In this document: positions 37,654 through 55,799 of the stretch, piece by piece
Position numbering within the stretch: position 1 is the stretch's first letter
How the letters are laid out: the number at the start of each line of letters is the position of its first letter
NCBI RefSeq assembly: GCF_023507705.1
Contig: NZ_JALBGD010000004.1
Coordinates: 395,588-459,587 of the forward strand
Reading direction: 5' to 3'
DNA from: Stappia sp. WLB 29
GTDB lineage: Bacteria > Pseudomonadota > Alphaproteobacteria > Rhizobiales > Stappiaceae
DNA: 64,000 bases
The notes under the pieces: generated by a model
The model's input: only the letters and a program-made list of their open reading frames with translations
What the model was told of the DNA's origin: nothing
The model's database searches: none
Position numbers and translations under genes: made by a program

Positions 37654-38427
37654 TCAGGCGCGGGCGGACTTTCCCGACAGCTTCAGGTACAGGATCTTCC
37701 ACAGATAGCGGAGGATGCCGGTCGTATAGCGCTGGCCGAGCCGCTTGGGCTCCTGTCCCAGCCGGTAGACCCATTCCAGCCCGTTGCGCCGAAAGAAGGA
37801 AGGCGCCCGCGTCACCTCGCCGGCGGTGAAGTCGAACAGTGCGCCGACGCCGAGGGCCAGCGGCACGTCGAGATCGGCCCAAAGCCGATCGATGAGGAGT
37901 TCCTGCCGCGGGTTGCCCATCGCCACGAGCAGGATGTCGGGGCGGGCGGCGTTGATGTCGGCAACGATCTGCGGGAGTTCAGCCTCGTCGAAATAGCCGC
38001 TGCGCCAGCCGCAGACGGCGATTGCGGGATGGCGGGCCGCGAACATGCCGGCGGCTCTCTCCGCCACTTCGGGCCTGGCACCGAAAAGATAGACGCGCGT
38101 GCCCACAGGCGCGGCGTCCAGCAGCGCAGGCACGAAGTCGGTACCGTTGAGATTGTCCTCAAAGCCCGTGCCGGAGAGCAGCCGCGCGCCGATCTCCGCG
38201 CCGATCCCGTCGTTCAGCACGAGGAAGCGGGAGAGCGCCTGTGCGAAGGCCGGGTCGTCCATCGCCAGCAGCAGGCCGTGGGCATTGGCGAAGGCGACGG
38301 CAAGGCGGTTGCCGGACCCCGGCACGGCGAGCAGACGGCGGATGGCCGCCTCGCGGCCGAGGCGCGCGATGGCGACCGGGCCGATCTGCACGCTCTCCTG
38401 GTCTGTCGTGGCGATCTTGCGCGTCAT
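37654..38427 (-). CDS. WecG/TagA/CpsF family glycosyltransferase
   Basis: GT26-type enzyme of 257 residues. Motifs are AVAFANAHGLLLAMDDPAFAQAL, LVLNDGIGAEIGARLL, GTDFVPALLDAA, VYLFGARPEVAERAA and LLVAMGNPRQELLIDRLW. Members add ManNAcA, ManNAc or glucuronic acid to lipid-linked sugar intermediates at the membrane. ATG 38427 follows GGACGGAAGCGG; a GTG 36 bases upstream is possible. It is the leftmost gene of the exopolysaccharide locus, divergent from the co-polymerase. Confidence 0.9.
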   Translation of the reverse strand: MTRKIATTDQESVQIGPVAIARLGREAAIRRLLAVPGSGNRLAVAFANAHGLLLAMDDPAFAQALSRFLVLNDGIGAEIGARLLSGTGFEDNLNGTDFVPALLDAAPVGTRVYLFGARPEVAERAAGMFAARHPAIAVCGWRSGYFDEAELPQIVADINAARPDILLVAMGNPRQELLIDRLWADLDVPLALGVGALFDFTAGEVTRAPSFFRRNGLEWVYRLGQEPKRLGQRYTTGILRYLWKILYLKLSGKSARA

Positions 38428-40692: not shown

Positions 40693-41962
40693 AACGTCGG
40701 GCGCGCCCGTCTGGAGCAGGCTGCCTGCTGCGCGTCCGACCGCCGTCCGCCGGCCGGACACCTACGACCTGTGGATCCGGGCCGCCGGACTGCTGGTCAT
40801 CGGCACCATCGTCTTCAACTTCTTCCTGGCGTTCCTGAACACCCGCGTGATGGGTGTCTCGCAGAATATCGTGATGCTGGCGGAGCTCGTGCTGATCGCC
40901 GGTGCCATGATCCTGGCTGCCGACCGGCGCGCCGGGCTCTATGCGCTGCTGGCCGTTTATCTCGCCTATATGGCGCTGATCCTGGCGCTGCGGCCCGAGC
41001 TCGACCTGAAGGCGATCCGCGACGGACTGATCCCCATCGCGTTCTATTTCCTCGGACGGCGGGTCCGGGATATCGAGAGCGTCGATCGCATTGTGGTGCT
41101 GTCGGCAGGCATCGTCGTCGCGATCGGCTTCTTCGAATACTTCCTGCTCGACCTGTTCGTCGCGAACGTCAACGTGCTGAAATACTACATCTCCCGCGGC
41201 ACGCTGGAGGTCGGCGACAACCTCGTCGAGGATTCCTCGCTGTTCATCAGCGGCACCCGCATGCAGGGCCGCAACCTGCTGCCGTTCCTCGGCACCCACC
41301 GGGTGTCGTCGGTCTTTCTCGAGCCGGTGGCGATGGGCAATTACGGCGCCTTCCTGGTGCTGTGGGCGGTCTTCCGAAAGGACATGACCCATCGCTGGCT
41401 GCTTCTGGCGGCGGCCTGCGTCGTCATTGTCCTCGGCGATGCGCGTTTCGGCATGATGGTCTGCTTTGCCCTGATCGCCGTGATCCTGGTCTACCGCCTC
41501 GTGCCTCGGCTGATCTGGGTGCTGGTGCCGGCCTTCATCACGCTGGCCATGGCCGTCTACGGCATGTCGACCGATGCGCTGCGCTGGGAGGACGATCTGG
41601 GGGGGCGCTGGCTGCACGCGTCCTGGCTGCTGCTCAAGCTCGACATCCAGGGTGTGTTCGGCATTTCCAGCTATGGCGGCTTCCTGGAGGACAACGGCTA
41701 TGCCTATTCGCTCCACCAGCTCGGTCTCATCGGCATTGCCGGCCTGTGGTCGCTCTACATCTTCGCGCCGGTGCGCTCGCCCGATGCCTGGCGCTTCCGC
41801 GCCCCGCTCGTGACCTATATCTGCCTGCTGATGGTGGTCTCGGCCTCGTTCTATTCGATCAAGACCGCCGGGCTTCTGTGGTTCTGCGCCGGTGCCGTCG
41901 ACGTGTGGCGCGGCTTTGCAGCTGGCCGTCAGCGCGGCGAAGGCCCGAGCGCCTCGCGGTAG
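40673..41962 (+). CDS. O-antigen/exopolysaccharide polymerase-like membrane protein
   Basis: 429-residue integral membrane protein with about ten hydrophobic segments and a large loop after ISRGTLEVGDNLVEDSSLFISGTRMQGRNLLPFLGTHRVSSVFLEPVAMGN. FLEPVAMGN and RFGMM motifs are like those of Wzy-type polymerases that join repeat units on the periplasmic side. It starts inside the co-polymerase gene and runs 34 bases past the stop of the convergent glycosyltransferase, so the two genes overlap tail-to-tail. Confidence 0.82.
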   Translation: MSRWRPETSGAPVWSRLPAARPTAVRRPDTYDLWIRAAGLLVIGTIVFNFFLAFLNTRVMGVSQNIVMLAELVLIAGAMILAADRRAGLYALLAVYLAYMALILALRPELDLKAIRDGLIPIAFYFLGRRVRDIESVDRIVVLSAGIVVAIGFFEYFLLDLFVANVNVLKYYISRGTLEVGDNLVEDSSLFISGTRMQGRNLLPFLGTHRVSSVFLEPVAMGNYGAFLVLWAVFRKDMTHRWLLLAAACVVIVLGDARFGMMVCFALIAVILVYRLVPRLIWVLVPAFITLAMAVYGMSTDALRWEDDLGGRWLHASWLLLKLDIQGVFGISSYGGFLEDNGYAYSLHQLGLIGIAGLWSLYIFAPVRSPDAWRFRAPLVTYICLLMVVSASFYSIKTAGLLWFCAGAVDVWRGFAAGRQRGEGPSASR

Positions 41963-43074
41963 AATTCCGCGTAGCGCTCGACCGTACTCTCCCAGGAATA
42001 GCTCTGCGCCACCGCAATCGCCGCCGCGCGCGCGCCTTGCGGATCGAGCGCCAGGCGATCGTGGGCACGGGCCAGCGCGTCGGCAGCCTGCTCCGCTTCG
42101 CCGAAGTCCGCCAGCGCGATCTCGCTGTGCTTGCGCGCAAAGGCGGAAAAGGCGGCATTCGGCTCCACGACCGGCACGAGACCTGCGCTCATCGCCTCGA
42201 TCAGGGCGATGCCGAACCCCTCATAGACGGAGGCGCTGGCAAACAGGCTGGCGCGACCGACGATCTCGCGCATCGCTGCATCGTCCAGGCCGACATGCAG
42301 CCGCGCCCGGCCAGCGAGCCCGCGTTCGCCGATCATCGCCTCCACGTCCTTGCCGCTCCAGTCGAACGGCGTGCCGACGATGTCGAGCGTCCAGTCCGAA
42401 TCGCGCCGGGCGAGGACCGCGAAGGCGTCGAGCACCCGGTCGATGCGCTTGTTGTGCGACAGCCGGCCGATGCTGACAATGCCCTTCGCCGGATTTTTCG
42501 CGCCTGCATCGCCGAGCTTGGAGAGATCGACGCCGTTCTCGATCAAGCGCACCTTGCTGGGGGCGATGGCGGCGAAGCGCTCGTAGTCGCTCTGGCTGCA
42601 GCAGGCGATGCCGCGATAGGCGGTCGCCGAAAGCCGCGTCAGGGTGTTGAACCAGACGGTCTTCAGCCCGCCTGCCGTGCCGGAGTGGAAGAATCCGCCA
42701 TGGGTGGTGGCAACGAGCGGCCTGCGGTGAAACGGGGCGGCAAGCGCGAGCGCGTCGAAGAAGAAGTCGATGGCATGGACATGCACGAGCCCTGCGCCGG
42801 CAATCGCCTTGAAGACCCCCGGTGTGACGGGATAGCGCGTCGAGCCGTGCCAGGGCAGGCGGATCACCTCGATGCCGTCGATGATCTCCCGCGCGGGCAG
42901 GCGCCCGCCCGTGCCGCCGCGAAAGACGCGGTCGCAGGTGACGATCTTGACGCTGGCGAAGCGGTCTTTCTGCCGGGCGGCGAGACTTGCGACGAAGTCC
43001 TCAAGCCCGCCGACGCTCGGCCTGTATTGGCGCACCACATGCACCAGGTGCAATTGGCCATCCTGCGGGATCAT
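41929..43074 (-). CDS. Glycosyltransferase family 4
   Basis: GT-B retaining glycosyltransferase of 381 residues. The acceptor half starts LHLVHVVRQYRPSVGGLEDFVASLA; the donor half has VSIGRLSHNKRIDRVLDAFAVL and the nucleotide-sugar motif ASVYEGFGIALIEAMSAGLVPVVEP. It likely builds the lipid-linked repeat unit in the cytoplasm. ATG 43074 overlaps the deacetylase stop (ATGA). The same frame is open further upstream, which is shadow. Its 3' end overlaps the polymerase gene on the other strand. Confidence 0.92.
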   Translation of the reverse strand: MIPQDGQLHLVHVVRQYRPSVGGLEDFVASLAARQKDRFASVKIVTCDRVFRGGTGGRLPAREIIDGIEVIRLPWHGSTRYPVTPGVFKAIAGAGLVHVHAIDFFFDALALAAPFHRRPLVATTHGGFFHSGTAGGLKTVWFNTLTRLSATAYRGIACCSQSDYERFAAIAPSKVRLIENGVDLSKLGDAGAKNPAKGIVSIGRLSHNKRIDRVLDAFAVLARRDSDWTLDIVGTPFDWSGKDVEAMIGERGLAGRARLHVGLDDAAMREIVGRASLFASASVYEGFGIALIEAMSAGLVPVVEPNAAFSAFARKHSEIALADFGEAEQAADALARAHDRLALDPQGARAAAIAVAQSYSWESTVERYAEFYREALGPSPR

Positions 43075-44180
43075 GCGGCGGGGGCCGTCACCCCGGCCAG
43101 CGGATTGCCGCCGCGGGTGGCAAGCGCCCGGAACAGTCCGTCGATGCCGCATTCGGTGTAGGAGGCGGAATCCGCCGTGAACTCGGCATTCTGCCGCGGC
43201 AGGGTGAACATGTGGTCGGCATGGGCCGGGAACAGGCAGCCCGGCGTGGTGGTCACCGCGGTGCGGAAACCCGCCTCGCGCACGACCCTCGGCTCGCGCT
43301 CGCCCGACAGCGAGGGCGGCCCGTAAGGGTAGGCGAAATGCGGCACCTCGCGGCCCAGCAATGCTTCCAGATAGGCCTTGTTGTCGGCGATGTCGGCACG
43401 CAGCTGGTCTTCGTCCAGCAGGGCGAGGGCGCGGTGCGTCGTGGTATGGGCGCCGATCTCGATCAGGGGGTGCCGGTCGGCGGCTTTCACGCCGGCATCG
43501 TCCAGCGTGTAGCGAGCCACGATGTCGGCAACGCAGATGCCGTGCGCCGTGAATGTCGGCGAGAGCATCTCGGCCCGGTGGAAGTCCTCCCAGACCCAGG
43601 CGACGGCCCGCCGCAGTCCGGCGATCTTGCTGTCGGTATCCGGGCAGGTGAAGCGCTGTCCCATCGGCTCGATCTCGATCCGCTCGCGCGAACGGAAGAG
43701 TTCGGTCAGGCCCAGCCACCAGGCATTGATGGTGCGGGTCATCATCTCGGTCGGGACGTAGATCGTTGCCGGCGCGGCGTATTTCTCAAGGAGCGGCAGG
43801 GCGAGGTCGATATTGGAGCGATAGCCGTCGTCGAAGGTCAGCACGGCGAAGGGGCGCGGATCGTTCTGGGCGATGCGGCGCGTTGCCTCGTCGAGCGTCA
43901 CCACCTGCCGGCCGCGCTGCTTCAGTCCGGCCAGGATGCGGCCGAAATCGTCGATCAGGCATCCCTGGTCGAGATGCGCGCGGGTGTTCCGGGTGAAGTG
44001 GTGGAACATCAGGATGATGCCGGAGCCGCCGTAACGATAGCCGATCAGGCGGGTGAGGCGGCTCTTCGCCAACATCCGCAGCCCGAACGTCTTGATCCGC
44101 CGGCGCGTGCGCTCGCCGGTCGTCAGCTGCGGCGTAACGGTCGGTACGGCTTGCAGCAGGCTGTGGGTTCTTGCCGTCAT
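43071..44180 (-). CDS. Polysaccharide deacetylase family protein (NodB-like)
   Basis: 369-residue carbohydrate esterase family 4-like protein. The metal-binding and catalytic Asp pair is in AVLTFDDGYRSN, and the His pair in IEIGAHTTTHRALA. YVPTEMMTRTINAWW and HFAYPYGPPS are further family blocks. It has no signal peptide; a basic N-terminus suggests cytoplasmic action on lipid-linked sugars or membrane association. First gene of the two-gene minus-strand operon with the GT4 gene. Confidence 0.9.
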   Translation of the reverse strand: MTARTHSLLQAVPTVTPQLTTGERTRRRIKTFGLRMLAKSRLTRLIGYRYGGSGIILMFHHFTRNTRAHLDQGCLIDDFGRILAGLKQRGRQVVTLDEATRRIAQNDPRPFAVLTFDDGYRSNIDLALPLLEKYAAPATIYVPTEMMTRTINAWWLGLTELFRSRERIEIEPMGQRFTCPDTDSKIAGLRRAVAWVWEDFHRAEMLSPTFTAHGICVADIVARYTLDDAGVKAADRHPLIEIGAHTTTHRALALLDEDQLRADIADNKAYLEALLGREVPHFAYPYGPPSLSGEREPRVVREAGFRTAVTTTPGCLFPAHADHMFTLPRQNAEFTADSASYTECGIDGLFRALATRGGNPLAGVTAPAA

Positions 44181-44494: not shown

Positions 44495-45727
44495 ATGCGA
44501 ATCTTGATGGCTTGCGCCGCCTTTCCTCCCTTCATGGACGGCGGGGGGCCCATTTCAGCCCTGATGCTGGCCCGCATGCTTGCGGGCGAGGGACATGTGC
44601 TGCGCGTCGTCAATGTCGCGGACGAGGAAGCCCTGGAGCAGGCCGACGGGTTCGAAGTCCGGCGCATTCGCTCGCCCAGCGTCTACTGGAACTACCGCCG
44701 GCCGCGCCCGACCTGGAAGAAGATCGCCTGGCATCTGCTGGAAAACGGCAATCCGCGTGCCTTCGCGGCGATGCGCCGCGAGGTCGCCGACTTCCGTCCC
44801 GACGTCCTGCTGACCGACAGCATCGAGAACATCAACGTGGCGTCCTGGGCGGCCGCCCGTTCGCTGGGGGTGCCGGTCGCCCACACGCTGCGCAGCGCCT
44901 TCCTGCTGTGCTGGCGCGGCGTCATGCAGAAGGCCGACGGGAGCAATTGCGATGGCCAGTGCGCCGGCTGCTGGCTCACCTCGCTCGGCAAGCGGCATTT
45001 CACCCGCTATGTCGACGCGGTCTGCGGCGAAAGCCGGGAGGTCGTCGCGCGGCATCTGTCGGCCGGCTATTTCCCCAATGCGGCGACCCGGCGCATTCCC
45101 GGTGCGATCGATCCGGTGCCCGGTGCGACTGCGCGGCGCTTTCCGCAAGACAGGCCGCTGCGCGTCGGCTTCCTCAGCGTCCATACCCCTTTCAAGGGGT
45201 TGCAGGTTCTGGCGCAGGCGGCCGCCTTGGCTGTCGCCTCTCGTCCCGTGGACTATGTTGTCGCCGGCACTTCGCCAGACGGCAGCGATGCTGCGGCACT
45301 GACGAAAGGTTTCCCGGCGGACAGGACCCGCTTCGTCGGTTGGGCCGATCCGGCAACCTTCTTCCCGCAGATCGACCTCTTGGTCTTTCCCTCCATCGGC
45401 CGCGAGGCGTTCGGCCGCGTGGCCATTGAGGCCTTCGCCCATGGCGTGCCGGTGCTCGGTTCCGATCTCGGCGGCATTGCCGAAACCGTCATTCCGGACC
45501 ATAACGGCTTCCTGTTCCCGGCCGGCGATGCGGCATCGCTTGCCGCGCTGATCGAGCGGATCGCCGGCGACGGTGCGCTTTTCGAACGTTTGTCGCAGGC
45601 GGCGCTCGCCTCGGCGGAGCCCTATTACCGGCCGCGTGTGGCGGCCGCCTATACCCAGTTTCTGGAGACAGCAGTGGAACACGCGGCAGCGCGCGCCGGC
45701 GATGTGCGGGAGCAGGTGGCCTCATGA
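44495..45727 (+). CDS. Glycosyltransferase family 4 (group 1)
   Basis: 410-residue GT-B enzyme. It begins MRILMACAAFPPFMDGGGPI and has the Rossmann donor half with VGFLSVHTPFKGLQVLAQAAAL, RFVGWADPATFFPQIDLLVFPSIGREAFGRVAIEAFAHGVPVLGSDLGG. A Cys-containing stretch, KADGSNCDGQCAGCWLTS (about residues 148-165), looks like the small zinc-knuckle insert found in some GT4 proteins. ATG 44495 is chosen by homology; TTG 44453 adds 14 residues. Ends with an ATGA overlap with the flippase. Confidence 0.9.
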   Translation: MRILMACAAFPPFMDGGGPISALMLARMLAGEGHVLRVVNVADEEALEQADGFEVRRIRSPSVYWNYRRPRPTWKKIAWHLLENGNPRAFAAMRREVADFRPDVLLTDSIENINVASWAAARSLGVPVAHTLRSAFLLCWRGVMQKADGSNCDGQCAGCWLTSLGKRHFTRYVDAVCGESREVVARHLSAGYFPNAATRRIPGAIDPVPGATARRFPQDRPLRVGFLSVHTPFKGLQVLAQAAALAVASRPVDYVVAGTSPDGSDAAALTKGFPADRTRFVGWADPATFFPQIDLLVFPSIGREAFGRVAIEAFAHGVPVLGSDLGGIAETVIPDHNGFLFPAGDAASLAALIERIAGDGALFERLSQAALASAEPYYRPRVAAAYTQFLETAVEHAAARAGDVREQVAS

Positions 45728-47112
45728 TCGAGCGGATCCGCGCGATCGCCGCCGGCAAGGGCTTTCGGAAGATCTTCTGGTCCCTCGTCAGCCGAGGCAG
45801 CAGCACGGTGCTGAGCTTCGCCCTGCTGTTCGTGGCGAGCCATGTGCTCGATACGGACGAGTACGGCCTCTACATCTTCCTCTTCTCGGTCGGTTCTTCG
45901 CTCGGGTTGATTGCGGTCTTCGGCCAGCAGGTGCTGCTGATGAAGCACTTTCGATTGGCCAGCCACGCGCGCGGGGAAACCAACCAGTCGCTCCTCTACT
46001 ACAATGCGCTGTGGCTCGGCATCGGCTGCGGCGGCCAGCTGCTGGCCGCTTTCGTCATCTGGCTGTTTTCCGACCGGCTTCCCTACCCGTACGACCACTT
46101 GCCCATCGCCTTGCTGTTCGGCGCGATCTTCACGCTCAGCGAGTACATGCAGAGCTATTTCATCGTCCATGCGCGCATCGTGCTGGCTCTTGTGCCGCGC
46201 GAAAATCTCTGGCGCCTGCTGTCTTGCCTGGCTCTGGCCGGCCTTGCCTGGGCGGGCCTGCTGCATACGGGCTCGGCTGCCATCGAGATCGTCACAGGCC
46301 TGCTCGCGCTGATGGTCGGCTACCAGTTCGTCCGTTTCGTCGCCCATGAGGGGCTCGGCTTCCTGCGCGCATCCGGCGCCCGGGCCGAGGTTCCCTCGCG
46401 CGAATGGCGGCGCGAGACGCTGACCTTCTCGGCCAACGGCTTTTTTTCCTCCGCCGCGCTCTATTTCGAGACGATCCTGATCGGCATTGCCATCGGTCTC
46501 GATGTGGCGGCCTTCTATTTCGTCGCCACCCGCATCGCCTCCCTGCTGATTCTGCCCGTGCTGGCGATTGACACGGTCGGCGTGCCGCTGATCTCGGCCC
46601 GCTTCCAGGAACGGGACCATGCCGGCGCGCAGAAGCTGGTCTCGATGCTGTCGGCCGGCAGTTTCGTCCTGGCCGCCATCGGCGGCGTCGTGCTGTTCGT
46701 GGTCGGCCCCTTCGTGCTGCATCTCTTCAATCCGGCCTTCGTGGAGCATTTCCCGGTCCTGGTTCTGCTGTCCATCGGGGCGATAGCCCATGCCTTCTTC
46801 GGACCCGGCACCTGGCTGATGATGATCGGCGGCGGCGAGGCCTATCTGCTCAAGGCGCGTAGCGTGGTCTTTGCGGTCTATCTCGGCATGCTCTTCGTGC
46901 TGGCCAGCCAGTTCGGACCGGAGGGCGTTGCCATGGCCGGGGTGCTCGAGCTGGTGACCCTGCACCTGATCTCGCGGCGCTGGGTCCTGCGCCACTGGCA
47001 GGTCGACAATGCGGCCACATCCTTCCTGATGCTGAGGTGGCGCGAGAGGCAGGCCGCGGCCGGAAAGGTCCGGAACCGGGCACTGGAGGCAGGCGACAAT
47101 GGTCGTCCGTAG
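45724..47112 (+). CDS. Wzx-like polysaccharide flippase
   Basis: 462-residue MATE/MVF-type membrane protein with 12 or more hydrophobic segments, beginning FRKIFWSLVSRGSSTVLSFALLFVASHVLDTDEYGLYIFLFS. The pattern matches oligosaccharide flippases that move lipid-linked repeat units across the inner membrane. ATG shares ATGA with the glycosyltransferase stop. The GH5 gene starts inside its 3' end. Confidence 0.88.
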   Translation: MIERIRAIAAGKGFRKIFWSLVSRGSSTVLSFALLFVASHVLDTDEYGLYIFLFSVGSSLGLIAVFGQQVLLMKHFRLASHARGETNQSLLYYNALWLGIGCGGQLLAAFVIWLFSDRLPYPYDHLPIALLFGAIFTLSEYMQSYFIVHARIVLALVPRENLWRLLSCLALAGLAWAGLLHTGSAAIEIVTGLLALMVGYQFVRFVAHEGLGFLRASGARAEVPSREWRRETLTFSANGFFSSAALYFETILIGIAIGLDVAAFYFVATRIASLLILPVLAIDTVGVPLISARFQERDHAGAQKLVSMLSAGSFVLAAIGGVVLFVVGPFVLHLFNPAFVEHFPVLVLLSIGAIAHAFFGPGTWLMMIGGGEAYLLKARSVVFAVYLGMLFVLASQFGPEGVAMAGVLELVTLHLISRRWVLRHWQVDNAATSFLMLRWRERQAAAGKVRNRALEAGDNGRP

Positions 47113-48151
47113 AACCATTGCCGGCAGCGTTCTCGTCTCGCTGCTGCTTGGCTCGCTTCCTGCGGCCGCCGCCGAGTGCCTGCGCGGAGCAAATGCGGCC
47201 GGAGCCGAGTTCGGCGAGGTCCTGCCCGGCGAGTTCGGGCGCCACTACATCTATCCCTCGGCCGAGACCCTGCGCTATCTGCACTCCAAGGGCATGAACG
47301 TCATCCGCCTGCCGTTCCGCTGGGAGCGCCTGCAGAAAAAGCAGTTCGCCGAGTTCGACGAGGTCGAGCTGAAGCGCTTGCAGGAGACGGTCGCCACCGC
47401 CACCGGCCTCGGCATGACGGTGGTGCTCGATCCCAGCAATTTCGCCATGTACTACCAGAAGAACATCGGCAGCGAGGATGTGCCCGTCGAGGCCTTCGCC
47501 GACTTCTGGCGCCGGCTCGCGCCGCTCTTTGCCGGCCGCGACGACATCATCTACCTGATCATGAACGAGCCGGCCTTCGTCACGGCGCAGCAATGGCTGC
47601 CGGCGGCGAACGCGGCCATCGCCGAGGTGCGCAAGGCCGGGGCGGACAATTTCATCCTCGTGCCCGGGACGATCTGGACCGCCGCCGTCCACTGGTACGC
47701 GGATCAGGAGGGCGGCTCGAACGCTGAGGTGATGCGCGGCGTCATCGACCCGATGAACCACTACGGCTTCGACATCCACCAGTATCTCGACGACGACTAT
47801 TCCGGCACCAAGGCCGCCTGCAACAAGGTGGACGAGGCGATTGCCGGGCTGGAGCGCGTCACCGCCTGGATGGAGGAAACCGGCAACCGCGCCTTCCTCG
47901 GCGAGTTCGGCGGCCATGCCCGCCCGGATTGCTACCGCGGCCTTGCCCGTGTCGTCAGCCTGCTGAACTCGCGCCCCGACATCTGGACCGGCTGGACCAT
48001 CTGGGCCGCCGGCGACTGGTGGGGCGACTACCCGCTTTCGGTCCAGCCGCTGGAAGACGGTCTCGACCGGCCGCAGATGGTGGCGATCGAGCCGTTCATC
48101 GCGCGCAAGACACCGGAGGAGCGCTCGTGCGAGTCGCTGCGCCGCCGATGA
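47099..48151 (+). CDS. Secreted glycoside hydrolase family 5 (cellulase-like)
   Basis: 350-residue GH5 enzyme with a Sec signal peptide (MVVRRTIAGSVLVSLLLGSLPAAAAE). Conserved residues are in RLPFRWERLQ, the acid/base Glu157 in LIMNEPAF, HYGFDIHQYLD and the nucleophile Glu269 in FLGEFGGH, so it should be active on beta-1,4- or similar linkages. Within a polysaccharide export operon it probably trims or releases the exported polymer in the periplasm, as glycanases of cellulose and EPS systems do. Confidence 0.92.
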   Translation: MVVRRTIAGSVLVSLLLGSLPAAAAECLRGANAAGAEFGEVLPGEFGRHYIYPSAETLRYLHSKGMNVIRLPFRWERLQKKQFAEFDEVELKRLQETVATATGLGMTVVLDPSNFAMYYQKNIGSEDVPVEAFADFWRRLAPLFAGRDDIIYLIMNEPAFVTAQQWLPAANAAIAEVRKAGADNFILVPGTIWTAAVHWYADQEGGSNAEVMRGVIDPMNHYGFDIHQYLDDDYSGTKAACNKVDEAIAGLERVTAWMEETGNRAFLGEFGGHARPDCYRGLARVVSLLNSRPDIWTGWTIWAAGDWWGDYPLSVQPLEDGLDRPQMVAIEPFIARKTPEERSCESLRRR

Positions 48152-49932
48152 CAGGTCTTGCCCTCGCCCCGCGCATTCCGGTGGCCTTCGCCGGGACGAC
48201 CGGCCTGCTGGACATGGCCGGCGGCGATGTCGGCGTGGTGATCTGCGAACCCTGGGGCTACGAGGCGCAATGCGCCCGCCGCGCCCTGCGGGTCCTGTCC
48301 GACCGCCTGTCGGCGCTGGGTTGCCCGGTTCTGCGCTACGACCAGCCGGGTTCCGGCGATGCGCTCGCCGCCGGTGCCGATATCGGTGGGCTCGCCCCGT
48401 TCGACGCCGCGCTCGCCGCTGCCTGTGAGACGCTGCTGAGCGGCACCCGCGCCACCCGTCTCGTGCTGGTCGGTCTCGGCCTTGGCGCTGCCCTGTGCCT
48501 GCGCCATGCCGTCTCCCATCCGCAAACCGTGGCCGGCCTCGTTCTTCTGGCGCCCCCGGCCAAGGGTCGCGTGTGGCTGCGCGAGTTGCAGGCCCGCGCG
48601 GTGATGATCGGCGAGGTCACCGGTTCGGCTCCCGCGCCCGGCCCCGGCGAGGCGCTGCGCATCGCCGGCCTGCCCATGTCGCAGGCGTTGGCGGACGAGC
48701 TGCGCGCGCTCGACCTGACCGCGCCAGACGACATGCCCGCCTGCCCGGTCCTGGCGCTGGCGCGCGAGGGCCGCGCCGCGGAAGGGGCCCTGTGCGAGAT
48801 GCTTGCCGCGGAAACCGGCAGCGAGGCCGGCATCATGTCCGGCTACGACGAACTGATGACCGATCCGACCGGCTCGCTCGTGCCGGAGGCGGATTTCGCC
48901 CGTGTCCTGTCCTGGGTGCAGCGCCTGCTGCCGCAGGCCGATGCCGCTCCCGCCGGCAATGGCGCGGCAACGCCGCCTGCCGCCAGGCTTGCCGGCCCGT
49001 CCTTCACGGAGACGTTGTGCCTCTTCGGCCCGCAGGAGGCGATGGTCGGCGTCTGGTGCGCGCCCGCCCGGTCCGATCCGCAGGCCCTGCCGGTGATGCT
49101 GCTCAATGCCGGCGGCAACCCGCGTGCCGGCTGGGCGCGCGGCGGGGTGGAGCTCGCCCGTTCGCTCGCGGCGTCCGGCATCGCCTCCTTCCGTTTCGAC
49201 ATCGCCGATATCGGCGACAGCCGCCCGCTCCCCGACGGGCCGGCGGTGGTCCACTATCACGCAGGCCTGCCGGCGCAGCTGTCGGCGGCCATCGATCTGT
49301 GCGAGGCGATGGGCGGCGGCGACCGCGTCGTGGTAGCTGGCAATTGCGGCGGCGCCTATCTGGCGCTCAACGGCGCCTTGACGGACACGCGCATCGCTCA
49401 TGTCGTCGCGGTCAATCTCCAGCGCTTCCTGTGGGATCCGCGCGACGATGTCGCCGAGGTGCTCCGCTTCGGCCACAGCTCGGCGAGCGAGTACGGCCGC
49501 AAGCTGTTCAGCGCCGAGAAGTGGAAGCGGGTGCTGGCTGGAAAGTCCGACCCGCTCGGCATCCTGCGCAGCCTTGCGGTGCGGGCCTGGCGGCAGGGCG
49601 AGCGGCGCCTGGCGCCCTGGTTGTTCGGCCTTGCGCCCTTCTCGCGGCTCTATCGTCAGGTGCATGCCAATCTGGCGGCGCTGGCGCTGCGCGGCGTTGC
49701 CATCGTCCTCGTCTTCAGCGAGGGCGATCCGGGGCTTGCGCAGCTCGACACGTTCTTCGGCGAAGGCTGGAAGCGCCTAGCCGCCTATCCGAATATCGAA
49801 GTCGCGATGATCCCGGATGCGGACCACAATCTCACGCCGGACGCGGCGCGTCTGGCGCTGCGCGAGCAGGTGATCGGCGCGGCCCTGGCCGAGGCCACGA
49901 GCGAAGCCGCGGGCGCTCAGCCCGCCGCGTAG
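48148..49932 (+). CDS. Tandem alpha/beta-hydrolase-fold protein with altered nucleophile sites
   Basis: 594-residue protein with two alpha/beta-hydrolase domains. Domain 1 (about 15-265) has the elbow sequence G109-L-G-L-G113 with no nucleophile. Domain 2 (about 285-575) has G398-N-C-G-G402 with Cys400 in place of Ser, followed by SEGDPG and DADHNLT as likely Asp and His partners. No signal peptide. It may be an acyl- or aminoacyl-transferring enzyme rather than an esterase. ATG 48148 overlaps the GH5 stop (ATGA), so it belongs to the exopolysaccharide operon. Its last 16 bases overlap the convergent GH2 gene. Confidence 0.82.
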   Translation: MTGLALAPRIPVAFAGTTGLLDMAGGDVGVVICEPWGYEAQCARRALRVLSDRLSALGCPVLRYDQPGSGDALAAGADIGGLAPFDAALAAACETLLSGTRATRLVLVGLGLGAALCLRHAVSHPQTVAGLVLLAPPAKGRVWLRELQARAVMIGEVTGSAPAPGPGEALRIAGLPMSQALADELRALDLTAPDDMPACPVLALAREGRAAEGALCEMLAAETGSEAGIMSGYDELMTDPTGSLVPEADFARVLSWVQRLLPQADAAPAGNGAATPPAARLAGPSFTETLCLFGPQEAMVGVWCAPARSDPQALPVMLLNAGGNPRAGWARGGVELARSLAASGIASFRFDIADIGDSRPLPDGPAVVHYHAGLPAQLSAAIDLCEAMGGGDRVVVAGNCGGAYLALNGALTDTRIAHVVAVNLQRFLWDPRDDVAEVLRFGHSSASEYGRKLFSAEKWKRVLAGKSDPLGILRSLAVRAWRQGERRLAPWLFGLAPFSRLYRQVHANLAALALRGVAIVLVFSEGDPGLAQLDTFFGEGWKRLAAYPNIEVAMIPDADHNLTPDAARLALREQVIGAALAEATSEAAGAQPAA

Positions 49933-52397
49933 GGCACCGGCTGGCCGCCGAGCGGCAGAACCTGCCCCTGCGGCCTTGCATCGCCCGGCGTACCCGGTCG
50001 CCGGCGCAGCGCCACCATCTTCACATGCCCCGGCGCCAGGTGGAACCAGTTGTCGAGCGCCAGGAACGCCTCGTCGCGGATCGACACGCTCTGCGCGATC
50101 CTGTCGCTCGAAAGCCTCAGGCACCAGCCGCCATCCGCTGTCGCGAACGCCTCGGCGGAGATCTTCGCCCCGCGCGCCGACGCCTTGCGCCCGAGCGGGA
50201 AGTGGAAGGCCTCGTCCAGCACCGCTTCGGTGTCGGGATCGAGCACCTGCACATGCACGCAGTCGTGCGAGGGCGGGCCGAAGCGGAAGGCGAAAGTCGT
50301 GTCGAAGAAGGCGCCGATCAGCCGGGTCGCCGGCAGGGTGAGGCTGCCATGCGCAGGCATCTCCACCACCTCCGAGCCGCTTGCCACCGGCATATGCCCC
50401 TCGCGCAGGCATGCGATCTCGATCCGCATCGCCCGCGCGACGGGTGTGTCGTTCTGCAGGTGGATGTCGAGCCCGTTGGTGCCCTCGTCGGTCACGGTGA
50501 GCCGCAGCGGCGCAAACGCCCGGCGCAACCCGTGCCAGGCGGATTTCGGCGTGCCGTCATGGGCGACGACGCCCCAGCCGGCCCCCGGCATCAGGTCCTG
50601 GAAGGTCCACACCAGCGCGCCGCCGCAGCCCGATCCCTTGCGCCGCCATTCGGCGAAACTCGTCTCCATCACCTCGGCGACGGCCGCCCGGCCGTGGTCC
50701 AGATAGGAAGCCGGATCGCCGTAGCGCAGGTCGAGCAGATCGATGCCGTAGAGCTCGCGCACATAGTGATCGCGCACGTCCTCGAAGTCCCAGCCGACAT
50801 CCCGGTCGCGCGGCACGCCGCGCTTCCAGTCCGGATGGTGGCAGGGCGCGAGCTCCGAGACGGCCCCCGGCTCCGGCACGTTGGAAAAGGCGAGGCATTC
50901 GCCGGCAAAGCGCACATGCGCCCGCCTGGCATCTTCCAGCGGCCGGCGATAGGCGCCGACGCCGTAGTAATGGGCAATCCCTGCATTGGGCGAGAACGGC
51001 ATGGCGCCGCCGCTCGGCGAGTTCGGCACATAGGGCACGTCGGGCCGTGCGCTTGCCGCTGCGCCGGGCAGGATCTCCTCGGTCAGCGCCCCGCGCCAGC
51101 GCTCCTCGGGCAGGCCCATCATCGCGCCCTGCTGGTGCATCTCGCTGCCGCCGCACACGACGGCCAGCGACGGGGAGGCACTTGTCCTGCCGAGCAGGTC
51201 CGATGTTTCGCGGGCGACTTTCGCCGCGAATTCCGGATCGCTCGCCGGATAGTCGAAATTGGCGAAGGGCAGGTCCTGCCACACGAGAATGCCGAGCGCG
51301 TCGCACAGCTCGAAGAAGGCGGGGCTTTCCGGCGCCATCGTTCCGCCGATGCGCAGCATGTTCATATGCGCATCGCGCGCCAGTTCCAGCCAGGGACGAT
51401 AGGCGTCGCGGGTGCCGGGCAGGGCGGAGATATCGGCGCTGGTCCACACCGCACCGCGGCAGAACACCGGCACGCCGTTGACGAGGAGGCCAAAACCGTT
51501 GCCGTCCGGCCCCCGGTCCACCTCGATCCGACGGAAGCCGGTGCGTGCCAGCAGCAGCTCGCGCCCTTCGCCGACGAGCCGGACCTCATGCAGGCGCGGC
51601 GTTCCGTGCGTGTGCGGCCACCAGGATTCGATATCGGGGAGGTCGAGCGTGGCGGCAAGCTTGCCGTCCGCTTGCTGTTCCAGCGGCGCCTCCACGCCGG
51701 CACAGGCAATGCGCGCGGGGCCCGCAAACCCGTCGCCGGGCCGCAGCGAAACGGCGAGCTGCCCGGTGCCGTCCTCGCGCAAGGCGGAGCGGATCGACAC
51801 ATCGTGCAGCAGCACATCGGAGCACGCGGCGAGCGTCATCCCTCGCCAGGGGCCGACCGCATGCACGCTCGGGCACCAGCCCGGTATGTGGCCGAGCAGG
51901 GTACTGCGCACCATGCGAAGTCCCGGCTCGTCGACAAGGCGTGTGCGCCAGCGTGCGCGCGGACCCTTGCGGGCGAAATGCGGCGTGAGCGCGCGAAAAC
52001 AGAACATCAGCTCTGCGGGGCCCTCGAGATCGCACTCGACCTGAAGCGGCTGATACATGCTGTCGGAGGACAGCAGCGGCGCGCCGTCGATCCAGGCCTC
52101 GCAGACCGTCGCCAGTCCGTCGCAGCGCAAGACATGCGTCCCGGGCTTGGTCGGAGCGACGCTGCAACGATACCAGACGTCCTTGTCGTGCAGCGGCATC
52201 GGCGTCTCGCGCGAAAACCGACCTGCCGCCTCCAGCGCGGCCGCAGCCGTTCCCGGCACCGTGGCCGGAACCCACTCGGCGGCGCCCGCGTCCATCTCGG
52301 CGGGCGTCGTCCAGGCACCCTCCGGCGTCACGCAGAGCTGCCAGTCGGCGTTGGCGAGACGGTTCCCGGCCTCGGGCAGGGTGGCAAGGTCGATCAT
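49917..52397 (-). CDS. Glycoside hydrolase family 2 (beta-mannosidase-like)
   Basis: 826-residue GH2 enzyme without signal peptide. Order is sugar-binding jelly roll (WVPATVPGTAAAALEAAG; WYRCSVAPTKPG), immunoglobulin-like domain, TIM barrel (VNGVPVFCRGAVWTSADISALPG; MNMLRIGGTMAPESPAFFELCDALGILVWQDLPFANFDYP), then C-terminal beta domains. The acid/base Glu is probably in VVCGGSEMHQQ and the nucleophile Glu in RFAGECLAFSN. Both are present, though the motifs differ from textbook beta-mannosidases. It is the last gene of the minus-strand aminoacyl-carrier operon, 40 bases after DUF1839. Confidence 0.85.
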   Translation of the reverse strand: MIDLATLPEAGNRLANADWQLCVTPEGAWTTPAEMDAGAAEWVPATVPGTAAAALEAAGRFSRETPMPLHDKDVWYRCSVAPTKPGTHVLRCDGLATVCEAWIDGAPLLSSDSMYQPLQVECDLEGPAELMFCFRALTPHFARKGPRARWRTRLVDEPGLRMVRSTLLGHIPGWCPSVHAVGPWRGMTLAACSDVLLHDVSIRSALREDGTGQLAVSLRPGDGFAGPARIACAGVEAPLEQQADGKLAATLDLPDIESWWPHTHGTPRLHEVRLVGEGRELLLARTGFRRIEVDRGPDGNGFGLLVNGVPVFCRGAVWTSADISALPGTRDAYRPWLELARDAHMNMLRIGGTMAPESPAFFELCDALGILVWQDLPFANFDYPASDPEFAAKVARETSDLLGRTSASPSLAVVCGGSEMHQQGAMMGLPEERWRGALTEEILPGAAASARPDVPYVPNSPSGGAMPFSPNAGIAHYYGVGAYRRPLEDARRAHVRFAGECLAFSNVPEPGAVSELAPCHHPDWKRGVPRDRDVGWDFEDVRDHYVRELYGIDLLDLRYGDPASYLDHGRAAVAEVMETSFAEWRRKGSGCGGALVWTFQDLMPGAGWGVVAHDGTPKSAWHGLRRAFAPLRLTVTDEGTNGLDIHLQNDTPVARAMRIEIACLREGHMPVASGSEVVEMPAHGSLTLPATRLIGAFFDTTFAFRFGPPSHDCVHVQVLDPDTEAVLDEAFHFPLGRKASARGAKISAEAFATADGGWCLRLSSDRIAQSVSIRDEAFLALDNWFHLAPGHVKMVALRRRPGTPGDARPQGQVLPLGGQPVPYAAG

Positions 52398-52437
52398 CTG
52401 GCTCCCCGGTACTGGGCAGTCCCGCGCGGCCGCAGCG

Positions 52438-53433
52438 TCACGCGGCGAGCGTGCGCAGGCGGGAGGGAAGTTTCTCTTCCAGCCCCGTCATCAGCGTGTC
52501 CCAGGCCGCTGCCGCCGGGGTCAAGGCCTCGTCGAGCCCGGAAAAGCGTTTTCGCGCCAGCGCCCTTGCCAGCTGGAACTGCAGCGTCTTGCAGCATTCG
52601 GAGATGGCTCGTGCCGCGCCGGCCTCCGCCGCAAGGCTGCCGTCCTCGGCAAGCCAGTCGAGATGGCTCGCCGCCAGCTCGAAATTGGCGCCCGCCTGGC
52701 GCAGCGTGTTGAACGCGTATTTGTGGAAGGCCTCGAAGGGACGCTCCGACAGGGCCTCGATCTCGGCCGCGAAGCCCGATGCATAGACGGCAAAGGGATT
52801 GTCCTTCGGCCGCCGGGCCAGATGCCCGGCAAGCAGCTTCCAGGCGGTCTCGCGCGGATCGCCGGCCGGTGCAGCCTCGGGGAATTTCGCGAATTCGGTA
52901 TAGGGCAGGAAGGGGAGGGGCTGGGCGTGTTCGCCGCGCTGGAACACGCCGTCGAAGTCCTCGCCTTCCAGTTCGAAGAAGCCGGCATTGTGGAAGTAGC
53001 GCAGACGCTTGGCGCCTTCGTCCAGCGCGGTGATCGCCACCGTCGTCTTGCCGTGCTCGATGCGGTAGCTGACGCCCTGCGTGTCGGGCAGGAAATAGCT
53101 GTCCACCTCGACGAGGCAGAGCCGGCCGCGGGCGATCTGCGTCGCCACATGCCGCTCGACCGGCTCGTAGACGGCCAGTTCCGTCGCACGGATGCCGTAG
53201 AGTGCCTCGAGATCCTCCAGCGGCACCTTGAAGAAGGTGAACTGGTCGCCCTCGAAATCCTGCGTCACGGTGAAGCCGAGCATCGCCTCCACCGGCAGGC
53301 CGAGCGCATGCAGCACCTCGATCCACAGATCGACATAGCAGTTGGTCTCCGGCCACATCCGCCCCGCGTCATGCAGGGGATGCGGCCGGTAGCCGTCGGC
53401 CCGAAGGGCGGCGAGCCTGTCGAATGCGGGCAT
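52438..53433 (-). CDS. DUF1839 family protein
   Basis: 331-residue protein matching DUF1839. It starts FDRLAALRADGYRPHPLHDAGRMWPETNCYVDLWIEVLHALGLPVEAML and continues with FEGDQFTFFKVPLEDLEALYGI and VEVDSYFLPDTQGVSYRIEHGKTTVAI. The N-terminal NCYVDLWIE and later Asp/His residues recall a Cys-protease- or peptide-synthase-like pocket (inference only). Homologues are typically found beside amino acid:carrier-protein ligases, as here, so it may receive or transfer the aminoacyl group. ATG 53433 lies two bases after the ligase stop. Confidence 0.85.
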   Translation of the reverse strand: MPAFDRLAALRADGYRPHPLHDAGRMWPETNCYVDLWIEVLHALGLPVEAMLGFTVTQDFEGDQFTFFKVPLEDLEALYGIRATELAVYEPVERHVATQIARGRLCLVEVDSYFLPDTQGVSYRIEHGKTTVAITALDEGAKRLRYFHNAGFFELEGEDFDGVFQRGEHAQPLPFLPYTEFAKFPEAAPAGDPRETAWKLLAGHLARRPKDNPFAVYASGFAAEIEALSERPFEAFHKYAFNTLRQAGANFELAASHLDWLAEDGSLAAEAGAARAISECCKTLQFQLARALARKRFSGLDEALTPAAAAWDTLMTGLEEKLPSRLRTLAA

Positions 53434-53435
53434 GG

Positions 53436-54347
53436 TCAGCCCCACAGCGCCTTGCGCACGTCCGCCGGCCAGTCGGCCGTCTCCAGCCCATGGCGGGCGA
53501 AGAGCGCAAGCGTGATCCGCTCCAGGCCGAAGCCGACGCAGGCCGTGTGCGCGGTCGCGCCGTCGGCGGTCGTGAGGCCCCAGGTCGTGCCGAAATGGTC
53601 CTGGTGGTAGTTGAAGCTGAGGCAGGCGGTCTTGTTGGCCGACGAGGTCACCGGGATCAGCAACTCGAACTTCAGCTTCTGCTCGCGCTGGCTGTTGCCC
53701 ATCATCTTGCCGGCGCGGCCGAAGAACGGATCGTTCGCCGTGTCCAGCTCGACATCGAGGCCGACGGCGGAGATCAGCTTCTGCCCGCGCTCCATCCAGT
53801 CCTCGCGGAATTCCATCACCTGGTCCGGCGTGCCCATGCGCACGAACTCGCGCATGCGGAACAGCTGCATGCGGGCCGGGTCCTTCGAGGGCTCGTGGCG
53901 GAAGCAGTAGGACTGCAGGTCGAACAGCCCGCCGCCGGCCGGCAACGGTCCGCGCTTGGCCACCACCGGATAGAGCGGGTAGCAGGCGGCCGGCGTCAGC
54001 ACCACGTCGGTGGCCTTCTGTCCTTCCGTCCAGTCGCCGCCCTCGGCGATGCACTGCAACAGGTTCATGTGGTCGAGCTCGCAGCCGCAGAAGCTGTGCA
54101 CCGTGCCGGCCAGCTGCGGGAAGCTCTTCATGTAGCCGGAGCCTTCGAAATGCTTGCGGTTCATGCCCGGCGGGAAGCGGATCACCTCCGGGCGCGCGTC
54201 TGCCGGCGCATGGGCGTCGATCAGCTTCTCGAAGCGCGCGATCACGTCCTCGAAGGCGCCGCTGCGGCCATAGAGGCCGTCGATGCCGGTATCGATCAGC
54301 AGGCCGGCGTCGAGCAGCCGGTCGAGCAGCGAGCTCTGCATGTCCAT
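53436..54347 (-). CDS. Amino acid:[carrier protein] ligase (seryl-tRNA-synthetase-like)
   Basis: 303-residue class II synthetase-like catalytic domain without tRNA-binding arm, like Bradyrhizobium Bll0957. Such enzymes activate Gly or Ala with ATP and load it onto a phosphopantetheine carrier protein. The zinc ligands of the family are intact: Cys122 ([11 protein letters not shown]), Glu167 ([10 protein letters not shown]) and Cys270 ([11 protein letters not shown]), each nine positions before the Bll0957 numbering (131, 176, 279). Motif 2 is [21 protein letters not shown]; motif 3 is [16 protein letters not shown]. Its partner carrier protein is encoded at 55542-55799. Confidence 0.93.
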
Positions 54348-54360
54348 GGGTCCCTCCCGA

Positions 54361-55542
54361 TCAGCCGTAAAGGCTGGTGTCCTGCTTGTGCACGAGCAGC
54401 ATGGTCGACGTGTTGCCGAGAATGCGGTCGTTGGAGATCATCAGCTGGGCCGAATGCGCATCGCGCAGGTGCCGGCCGAGGCTGTAGGGCGTGCCGTTCT
54501 TGTAGGCGAGGATGCCGCAGATCAGCATGCAGTGATTGATGATCGACAGGATCGTCTGCGAACTGGCGATCTTCAGGTTGTTCATTGCCACGGCAAAGCT
54601 CATGGCCGAGAGCTTGTCCTCGTCGAGCCGCGCCGCGTCGTATTTCTCGATGGCCGCCACGATGCTGGCCTTGACGCCCTGCAGCAGGGCCGAGGCCTCG
54701 GCGACGCGCAGCGCGCCGGGCGGCGCCTGGTCGGGGCTGCGGCGGGCGGCGGCGCGCACGAAGGCCTGCGCCTTGGCGAAGGCATCGGCGGCGATGCCGT
54801 ACCACACCGCGCTCCACAGGATGTGCGAATGGGCGAGCATCGATTGCGCGGCGATCTCGGCGAAGGGTCGGGGCAGGATCTGCTTCGCCGGCGCCTCGCC
54901 CTTGAACAGGAAGCCGTCGGAGCAGGTGCCGCGCATGCCCAGCGTGTCCCACACATGGGTGCGCTCGAGCGTGTACTGGTCCTTCAGGAAGACGGTCATC
55001 ACCTGGTCGCTGGAGGCGGCTTGCGGGTGCGCGCGCGAGGTGATCAGAATGGCGTCGGCCTCGGTGCCGTAGGAGATGACGGTGGCGTCCTTCTGCAGCC
55101 GGCAGGTGTCGCCGTCCACCTCGATCGCGCAGATCGAGTTGCGCAGGTTGCCGCCGATGCCCCCTTCCGTCGTTGCCGAGGCGAGCAGCAGCTGTTCGGC
55201 CGCGACGCGGACCATGAAGCCGCGGTGCCAGTCGTCCTCCTCGCCGTGGCTGACCAGGCTCGAGACCTTGATCTGGTGCATGGCGAAGACCATCGCGGCC
55301 GCGGCGCAGGCCTGCCCGAGAATGGCGCAAAGCTCGGAAATCTCCGCGACCGACGCGCCGTCGCCGCCCAGCTCCACCGGGATCTGGCATCCCAGCAGCC
55401 GTTCGTGCCGCATCGCATCGACCGCCTCGCGCGGGAAGCGCGCCGCGGTGTCGACCGCATCCGCATGGGTGGCGGCGATCGCTGCCACCCGCCGCATGCG
55501 CTCGCACAGCGTCATGGCCTTTGCGGAGCCGAGCACGGTCAT
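54361..55542 (-). CDS. Acyl-CoA dehydrogenase-fold protein
   Basis: 393-residue flavoprotein of the acyl-CoA dehydrogenase family. It has the N-terminal helical domain ([54 protein letters not shown]), middle beta domain ([31 protein letters not shown]) and C-terminal helices. In this operon it could oxidise an aminoacyl group held on the carrier protein, for example glycyl to an imine, rather than fatty acyl-CoA (inference). ATG 55542 shares one base with the carrier-protein stop (TGATG). Confidence 0.87.
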
Positions 55543-55799
55543 CACGCCACCTGCTCGTCCGGTGCGAGTTCGGCCACCGCCGAGGAGATCGCGCCGATAC
55601 TGGAGAAGGTCTTGCGGTTGAGCATGGTCTCGGGGAACTCGATGTCGAACCGCTCTTCCAGCGCCAGCATCAGCTGCACGGATGCGAAGGACGACAGGCC
55701 CGCGGCATAAAGATCCGCGTCGTCGGCCAGCGTGGCGACATCCACCGGAAGCTTGCCGTGGCTGGCGATGATCTGTCGCACGTCTTCGATGATCGGCAT
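55542..55799 (-). CDS. Acyl/aminoacyl carrier protein
   Basis: 85-residue four-helix carrier protein. The phosphopantetheine attachment Ser37 is in DLYAAGLSSFASVQLMLALEERFDIEFPE, with Ser replacing the usual Asp before it. This deviation is shared by dedicated carriers of amino acid ligases. ATG 55799 is chosen because AGGAG lies 7 bases upstream; ATG 55805 would be too close. First gene of the five-gene operon carrier-dehydrogenase-ligase-DUF1839-GH2. Confidence 0.9.
   Translation of the reverse strand: MPIIEDVRQIIASHGKLPVDVATLADDADLYAAGLSSFASVQLMLALEERFDIEFPETMLNRKTFSSIGAISSAVAELAPDEQVA

Follow-up and report, generated by a model that had tools for sequence, protein, structure and literature searches.

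An aminoacyl-carrier operon of Stappia and its relatives: a possible route from a tRNA synthetase-like ligase to the sugars of an exopolysaccharide

What becomes of an amino acid that a ligase resembling an aminoacyl-tRNA synthetase (aaRS) has placed on a small carrier protein? Homologous ligases put glycine or alanine on carrier proteins (PMC5370406), and according to a 2022 review it was still unknown what biological purpose the loaded amino acid serves (PMC9437257). The question is raised again by a stretch of 64,000 nucleotides from Stappia sp. WLB 29 (contig NZ_JALBGD010000004.1, positions 395,588 to 459,587), hereafter the window, where five minus-strand genes at 49917-55799 code for a carrier protein, a flavoenzyme, an amino acid:carrier ligase, a DUF1839 protein and a glycosidase of family GH2. 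We give about even chances to the following answer: together with a sixth gene, coding for a fused double hydrolase, they would make up a cytoplasmic pathway in which the carrier is loaded, the amino acid is modified on the carrier, and DUF1839 transfers it to a sugar of an exopolysaccharide precursor. We count as support the gene order, the loading known for homologues, the fold of DUF1839, its co-occurrence with the hydrolase, the association of the latter with clusters of exopolysaccharide markers, its fusion to a flippase, its place in another genome (G379; G and L numbers are our handles for genomes and loci), the cysteine-bearing second copies of DUF1839 found near it in two genomes, and a serine in the glycosidase. 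The six genes are as follows.

55542..55799, minus strand: aminoacyl carrier protein, 85 aa (PF00550, NF005480; phosphopantetheine serine in AGLSSFAS; ATG at 55799)
54361..55542, minus strand: flavoenzyme of the acyl-CoA dehydrogenase fold, 393 aa (PF02771)
53436..54347, minus strand: amino acid:[carrier protein] ligase, class II aaRS-like, 303 aa (NF005479, PDB 4h2w)
52438..53433, minus strand: DUF1839, papain-like, proposed carrier-dependent aminoacyl transferase, 331 aa (PF08893, 428 bits)
49917..52397, minus strand: GH2 glycosidase, beta-mannosidase-like, 826 aa (PF22666, 5n6u)
48148..49932, plus strand: fused double alpha/beta-hydrolase, 594 aa (TIGR03101-like then TIGR03100-like, both below cut-off)

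A preliminary description, made from the DNA letters, had claimed a five-gene minus-strand operon, and the claim is borne out, each gene being found in its place and its family matched by profile searches. The ends of neighbouring genes overlap or almost touch, and because some 300 nt separate the ATG of the carrier from the divergent upstream gene, the operon can be said to start at the carrier gene. A promoter and terminator scan found no promoter-like site for it, and terminators at chance level. No signal-peptide-like start appeared in the operon proteins in a hydropathy scan, and a genome search found a single DUF1839 in the whole genome. The fused hydrolase gene is convergent with the GH2 gene and overlaps it by 16 nt.

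The constancy of this arrangement was followed in 60 stretches, most of about 20 kb, fetched around ligase or DUF1839 genes, and in 80 further named loci. Carrier, flavoenzyme, ligase, DUF1839 and GH2 follow one another on one strand, with no intervening gene, in 115 of the 119 stretches that hold DUF1839 (window included), with median gaps of -1, 5, 0 and 16 nt in that order; such a fixed order is far beyond chance. The four exceptions are a lone second DUF1839 (L046), a contig that starts inside the flavoenzyme gene (L143), a locus in which no GH2 was found (L145) and one with no carrier found (L164). Some genomes were fetched twice: the distinct DUF1839 sequences number 114, and the residue counts given below for DUF1839, ligase, carrier and hydrolase include re-fetched copies of identical loci.

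Of 398 genomes sampled from the phylum, 16 hold DUF1839 and 28 the ligase over its family cut-off; with E up to 0.001 the ligase count rises to 44. None of the 16 lacks the ligase, the two genes lying at adjoining places, and the other 12 ligase genomes carry a shorter set, usually divergent carrier, flavoenzyme and ligase genes, without DUF1839 or GH2. A ligase tree, thinned from 130 to 57 rows, gathers the DUF1839-associated ligases on one side of a single branch (SH-aLRT 82). Plasmids take part in this distribution, as 59 plasmid records hold DUF1839, including those of Rhizobium, Azospirillum, Mycetohabitans, Caballeronia, Cupriavidus, Burkholderia, Shinella, Methylobacterium and Phyllobacterium. 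Distant relatives of the ligase (about 350-414 aa, below the family cut-off) occur in other families of the phylum, beside neighbours that differ from those of this system (L049, L050, L063, L065, L068, L070).

Loading is the step for which homologues offer a direct model. The carrier scores 117.8 bits against NF005480 (cut-off 72), and its phosphopantetheine serine is retained in all 133 rows; it reaches 92 bits with the Agrobacterium carrier Atu2571 (2jq4) and with 4h2w_C, versus 22.5 bits with 4h2s_C, the carrier solved with the Bradyrhizobium ligase Bll0957, from which it is thus far removed. The ligase, with 512.7 bits against NF005479 (cut-off 357), has 4h2w as its best PDB match (E 4.9e-99), and all 139 rows agree in C122, E167 and C270. 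We take these three residues to be zinc ligands, as in Bll0957, and the PDB alignment places the same letters there; the zinc triad that had been called intact is so indeed, and with a carrier gene upstream in the same operon the protein belongs to the amino acid:carrier ligases.

The flavoenzyme is less easily assigned. Its structure model (pLDDT 90.2) finds its closest folds, at similar scores, in TdsC, in KijD3, which we take to be an N-oxygenase, and in short-chain acyl-CoA dehydrogenases, so that flavin mononucleotide (FMN) monooxygenases, an N-oxygenase and dehydrogenases are mixed among the matches. Canonical acyl-CoA dehydrogenases have a glutamate as catalytic base at a C-terminal position; the aligned column holds isoleucine in 22 of 22 sequences, and threonine in 7p98, the best profile match. 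As isoleucine replaces the glutamate that would mark it as an acyl-CoA dehydrogenase, the reaction of these enzymes cannot be assumed for it.

It is DUF1839 that gives the proposal its chemistry. The protein belongs to PF08893 (428 bits against a cut-off of 22.5), and its AlphaFold2 model, built from 24 aligned sequences, has a mean pLDDT of 92.9. The 19 PDB matches with Foldseek E values of 1.7e-8 to 1.5e-4 are all AziU3, CtaG or CcbD (best E 1.7e-8, 8.4e-7 and 1.9e-5, respectively), with TM-scores mostly of 0.55-0.63 and alignments that span almost the whole chain; no BtrH structure is among the fold matches listed. CtaG is presumably an amide-forming enzyme. The CcbD matches include structures with the carrier domain and with methylthiolincosamide, and according to a review CcbD takes carrier-bound proline on its own cysteine and passes it to the amino group of a thiooctose, while several arginines hold the carrier (PMC12945683). 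A classification of 2023 counted DUF1839 among the papain-like enzymes whose triad is swapped to Cys-(Thr/Ser)-His; it also suggested an acyl-CoA-dependent role in the processing of glycans at the cell wall (PMC10318531). The candidate nucleophile cysteine, Cys32, is present in 122 of 124 rows, His127 and His148 (numbered from the ATG) in 124 of 124 each. To judge by the modelled fold and these residues, DUF1839 is likely a carrier-dependent aminoacyl transferase, and one with a structural precedent.

The two rows without the cysteine are the in-operon copies of G313 and G385, which have lost the threonine pair as well (L035:9935-10918, L044:7401-8378). Both genomes hold a second, cysteine-bearing DUF1839 close to a fused hydrolase and a Wzz/Wzc-type protein; a ManC-like gene stands next to this second copy in G313, and in L187 ManC lies between. 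A cysteine-less copy in the operon with an intact one elsewhere makes a possible pseudoenzyme pair.

A sixth partner has to be added to the five genes. The two parts of the fused protein resemble hydrolases 2 and 1, known from exosortase A loci, at scores below the cut-offs of those families. A first scan with TIGR03100 matched 283 of the 398 genomes and, being too unspecific, was replaced by a profile of the fused protein, which found matches in 29 of 398 (E up to 1e-20): those in 17 genomes span both domains, and those in the other 12 are partial or concern unfused genes. The full-length protein occurs in 16 of 16 genomes with DUF1839 versus one (G379) of the 382 without (Fisher 1.2e-27), and among 61 relatives in 32 of 32 with DUF1839 versus none of 29 without; the two samples share a few genomes. 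The fused hydrolase can thus be counted as the sixth member of the set, and no DUF1839 genome that was tested is without it. Among the 29 relatives without DUF1839, the only trace at E up to 1e-20 consists of three pieces in G027, two of them with stops; this remnant (L231) lies in a stretch with Wzz and GT4 genes and suggests a joint loss with DUF1839. In genome G249 (L034; L178, L179) the full-length fused hydrolase occurs twice, on separate contigs, and neither copy lies at the DUF1839 operon.

Counted over matching proteins of 500-1300 aa, the second domain keeps Cys400 in 89 of 89 rows, Asp527 in 88 and His560 in 89, and it is this domain that fits the Cys-type hydrolase of the preliminary description. 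At the elbow of the first domain most patterns shown have glycine (as in the window) or another non-nucleophile; serine stands there in at least 6 of the 89 rows, so that this domain is not always devoid of a nucleophile.

Where else this pair is found tells something of its possible role. Three exosortase-A-type loci (L172, L183, L184) have, within a few kb, a TIGR03098 ligase, a small carrier and separate hydrolases of both kinds, and in G379 the fused hydrolase lies downstream of an NF005480 carrier (109.9 bits, cut-off 72) and of an amino acid adenylating enzyme of the nonribosomal peptide synthetase (NRPS) type. Since the pair goes with carriers of two unrelated superfamilies of loaders (class II aaRS-like, and AMP-binding of two kinds), this suggests an action on the acyl group while the carrier still bears it, or at a later step. 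Another pair of hydrolases 2 and 1 stands beside a 2106-aa NRPS in G392 (L174:8792-16976), which gives these hydrolases a further carrier-protein partner.

The exopolysaccharide locus that had been described beside the operon is real. Its genes, next to the fused hydrolase, are these.

47099..48151, plus strand: GH5 (cellulase family), signal-peptide-like start by hydropathy (PF00150, E 2e-44)
45724..47112, plus strand: Wzx-like flippase, 10 transmembrane-like segments (PF01943)
44495..45727, plus strand: GT4 glycosyltransferase (PF13692, PF00534)
43071..44180, minus strand: polysaccharide deacetylase (PF01522, E 2.4e-19)
41929..43074, minus strand: GT4 glycosyltransferase (PF00534)
40673..41962, plus strand: membrane protein, possible polymerase, 8 transmembrane-like segments (no Pfam match)
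38680..40692, plus strand: chain-length determinant Wzz/GNVR (PF02706, PF13807; TIGR01005 below cut-off)
37654..38427, minus strand: WecG/TagA/CpsF-family glycosyltransferase (TIGR00696, 112 bits, cut-off 69)

That the tie goes beyond this neighbourhood is seen in genomes whose hydrolase lies away from the operon. At least two of the marker families Wzz, Wzx and GT4 occur in 22 of 31 stretches around such copies versus none of 15 control stretches, hand-picked at round coordinates in the same genomes, and any exopolysaccharide marker in 27 of 31 versus 2 of 15. The marker profiles were built partly from four of the 31 stretches (L177, L178, L181, L187), for which Pfam searches, not dependent on these profiles, give Wzz, Wzx, GT4, Wzc or ManC; without the four, 18 of 27 hold at least two markers. 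Four stretches (L180, L181, L188, L236) are only about 12-20 kb from the operon, and G249 and G046 contribute two each. In Rhizobium the hydrolase and a Wzx-like flippase may form a single protein (1103 aa in L032), its gene following those of GH2 and a GT4 in the same direction. Elsewhere in the window are an MdoH-like glucan glucosyltransferase (61387-63279, NF003958 over cut-off), the sign of a second glycan system nearby, and a protein of the 6-pyruvoyl tetrahydropterin synthase family (PF01242, 59742-60137).

The glycosidase adds a hint about the sugar. Its best PDB match is 5n6u (E 8.9e-39), hydropathy gives it no signal-peptide-like start, and the two residues of a retaining GH2 enzyme, placed by the 5n6u alignment and the motif, are E419 (acid/base) and E500 (nucleophile), both present in 38 of 38 sequences (those of the first 60 stretches plus the window). 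The residue before the acid/base is serine, not the usual asparagine, in 37 of the 38. A study of 2025 explains serine at this place in glucosaminidases by the room that it leaves for a 2-amino group, and reports Ser-Glu also in subfamily GH2_14, for which galactosidase activity was measured (PMC12243196). In view of GH2_14 the serine is no proof of an amino-sugar substrate; it would fit an aminated or otherwise substituted sugar.

We may now assemble these elements into a mechanism. The ligase would activate an amino acid, glycine or alanine in relatives, and load it on the phosphopantetheine arm of the carrier, as is known for homologues. The flavoenzyme would then modify the amino acid on the carrier; with glycine in this place an alpha,beta-desaturation is impossible, and imine formation or oxygenation is to be expected. 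In a manner akin to that of CcbD, as its fold and conserved residues suggest, the cysteine of DUF1839 may take over the aminoacyl group and pass it to the amine of a sugar, less probably to a hydroxyl. The acceptor, if the link with the hydrolase is a guide, would be a precursor of a Wzx-dependent exopolysaccharide, either a building block or a unit already linked to a lipid, and GH2 and the fused Cys-hydrolase might trim, proofread or finish the glycan, or release a misloaded carrier, before flipping.

Several observations weigh against this pathway. The closest fold of DUF1839 is that of AziU3, which presumably serves ring formation, not amide formation, so that the reaction of DUF1839 is not fixed by the fold alone. 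Sequence searches found no similarity of DUF1839 to CcbD, CtaG or AziU3, and we have therefore to speak of a likeness of fold, not of membership. The usual order of a Cys-His-Asp/Glu triad is not found either, mapping leading to Thr130/Thr131 and His148. The unit counted for co-occurrence is the genome and not the independent event; of the 22 positive stretches, 8 belong to one group of close Rhizobium relatives; and 9 of the 31 hydrolase stretches are without two marker families, 4 without any marker. The sequence family of the window's deacetylase is met only in stretches of the Stappia family, in a search made for that family and not for other deacetylases. Finally, several lineages have the operon without adjoining exopolysaccharide genes: in Azospirillum (pAB510e) and Mycetohabitans (pBRH01) the five genes are followed by an annotated alpha/beta-hydrolase of the fused length, and on a Caballeronia plasmid the five stand by themselves, with no exopolysaccharide genes adjoining in any of the three, as annotated, the gene tables of PLSDB being incomplete. 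The conservation of the neighbourhood, which had been put forward as a check, holds for GH2 within the operon and is looser beyond it, 40 of 117 GH2-bearing stretches being without the hydrolase. Operons without sugar-related neighbours, which had been named as grounds for giving up the idea, exist in this partial sense, but in all 30 of the 40 cases that were tested (17 + 13) the hydrolase is present elsewhere in the genome.

These plasmid operons lend some credit to a small, soluble aminoacyl-sugar as the end product, whether secreted signal, storage or protective compound, with the glycosyl-related neighbours as suppliers of sugar and no polymer to be decorated. We grant this a minor but appreciable probability. 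CtaG and AziU3 also serve, we assume, small-molecule pathways, and the operon proteins have no signal-peptide-like starts. CcbD works in an antibiotic pathway (PMC12945683). Such a product would leave unexplained why the fused hydrolase mostly lies with Wzx, Wzz/Wzc and GT4, and why it can be fused to such a flippase in Rhizobium. One may also exchange the roles of the two cysteine enzymes, the Cys domain of the hydrolase being the true transferase and DUF1839 a thioesterase that clears misloaded carriers. The Cys, Asp and His residues of the hydrolase domain are almost without exception conserved; G379, a genome without DUF1839, possesses a loader, a carrier and the fused hydrolase; and the stretches L172, L183 and L184, where no DUF1839 was found, hold ligase, carrier and the two hydrolases. 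Nevertheless we hold this exchange to be improbable: CcbD, among the closest folds of DUF1839, makes an amide from a carrier thioester (PMC12945683), and in the 398-genome sample DUF1839 is limited to ligase genomes, whereas a general thioesterase might not be. For CtaG we assume the same amide formation.

The genomic surroundings suggest two more readings. Genes for EpmA (genX), an EpmB/lysine-2,3-aminomutase-like protein and elongation factor P (EF-P) accompany the operon in about 50 stretches (families of 50-53 members), mostly just upstream and in Rhizobiaceae (e.g. L032:12652-15480), as though the amino acid or its oxidised form modified a protein such as EF-P. This link with translation has very little chance of being right, for these genes were not seen beside the operon in the stretches of Stappia, Mesorhizobium, Azospirillum, Mycetohabitans and Caballeronia, and in L032 and L159 there is a gap of 262-263 nt between them and the carrier gene; neighbours in many Rhizobiaceae and not in other groups, they were rejected as partners of the system. 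The link with exopolysaccharides might for its part be a by-product of shared descent or shared genome regions, with no functional tie, as many loci come from related genera and the genomes are not independent. That seems to us quite unlikely, since the tie recurs in several families of the order, in family f87 (Burkholderiaceae by similarity) and in the window's own family, and holds across different contigs, with the apparent joint loss in G027 besides. We retain the aminoacylation of an exopolysaccharide-precursor sugar. The earlier suggestion that the amino acid goes to a sugar, with DUF1839 as a transfer enzyme, has gained strong support from the fold, from co-occurrence and co-loss with the hydrolase, and from the clusters. 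What the analysis shows is gene content, conservation, co-occurrence and likeness of fold; the oxidation, the transfer to a sugar, the exopolysaccharide as destination and the roles of GH2 and the hydrolase we infer.

From this work come a likely transferase for which a structural precedent exists, one more partner, and a tie between the system and the exopolysaccharide clusters of rhizobia, of Stappia and of genomes that resemble Burkholderiaceae. If the pathway is true, plant symbionts would be among the carriers of a kind of exopolysaccharide decoration of which we found no description, in a search that left out most subscription journals and was little aimed at amino acid substituents. The pathway would also give a reason for the existence of ligases that look like tRNA synthetases, which have been on record since 2010, and would offer a starting point for understanding the genes for carrier, ligase and hydrolases in exosortase loci.

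How does the system compare with those already known? Its ligase and carrier are of the same families as those known from Bradyrhizobium and Agrobacterium. Bll0957, the Bradyrhizobium ligase with a solved structure, belongs to the shorter type, with carrier, flavoenzyme and ligase and neither DUF1839 nor GH2 in the stretch; the ligase of L051 reaches 718 bits with it, and two GGDEF-EAL proteins near that Bradyrhizobium-type locus (L051:3871-8615) hint at a control of the shorter system by cyclic di-GMP. The Agrobacterium carrier Atu2571 is of the same type as that of the window. Atu2573 is named once, in a list (PMC11941606). A note in proof of 2010 had predicted for the same operon that an amino acid, its aminoacyl group oxidised, is joined to the amino group that a sugar derivative of the cell surface carries, with Atu2574 as the amide-forming enzyme (PMC2922099). 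Numbered after Atu2571, the carrier, and Atu2573, Atu2574 is presumably DUF1839. The core idea of sugar aminoacylation was thus printed in 2010 and is now better supported; the available text of that note makes no mention of the fused hydrolase, the transferase fold or co-occurrence figures, and, as far as our literature search reached, the fold match of the transferase, the sixth partner and the parallel with exosortase loci are new.

The lincosamide synthetase CcbD/LmbD is the nearest precedent for the transfer. We take its loader to be an NRPS-type enzyme, unlike the aaRS-like ligase of the window. The likeness of fold covers almost the entire DUF1839 chain (7yn1, 7yn2, 9dkr), and CcbD uses, as is proposed for DUF1839, a carrier-bound amino acid as donor, a catalytic cysteine, and a sugar amine as acceptor (PMC12945683), whereas its product is an antibiotic, its sequence bears no similarity to that of DUF1839, and its triad is Cys-His-Glu against Cys-(Thr)-His by mapping. 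The XrtA loci (TIGR03098, TIGR03099, TIGR03100, TIGR03101) have, as here, a carrier near a loader and a hydrolase pair of the same two kinds, but their loader is an AMP-forming ligase and their hydrolases are separate genes, with hydrolase 1 over the cut-off. They were rejected as parent, exosortase A (TIGR03109) having no match in the window's genome; the 31 matches there to TIGR03098, a loose AMP-ligase family, are all below cut-off and uninformative. In the D-alanylation of teichoic acids, the Dlt system brings an amino acid from a small carrier to a polymer of the cell envelope. It was likewise rejected as parent, with no match in the genome to the DltB-type MBOAT (PF03062), and the loader and the proposed transferase here are of families unrelated to those of Dlt. 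We can therefore offer, tentatively and as somewhat doubtful in its whole extent, a wider reading: a class of Gram-negative exopolysaccharides would bear aminoacyl amides, perhaps oxidised, put there by a cytoplasmic pathway derived from a tRNA synthetase that does with unrelated parts what Dlt does, and the hydrolase 2/hydrolase 1 pair would be a finishing unit common across bacteria, served by an aaRS-like loader here, by an NRPS-type one in G379 and by TIGR03098 in exosortase loci.

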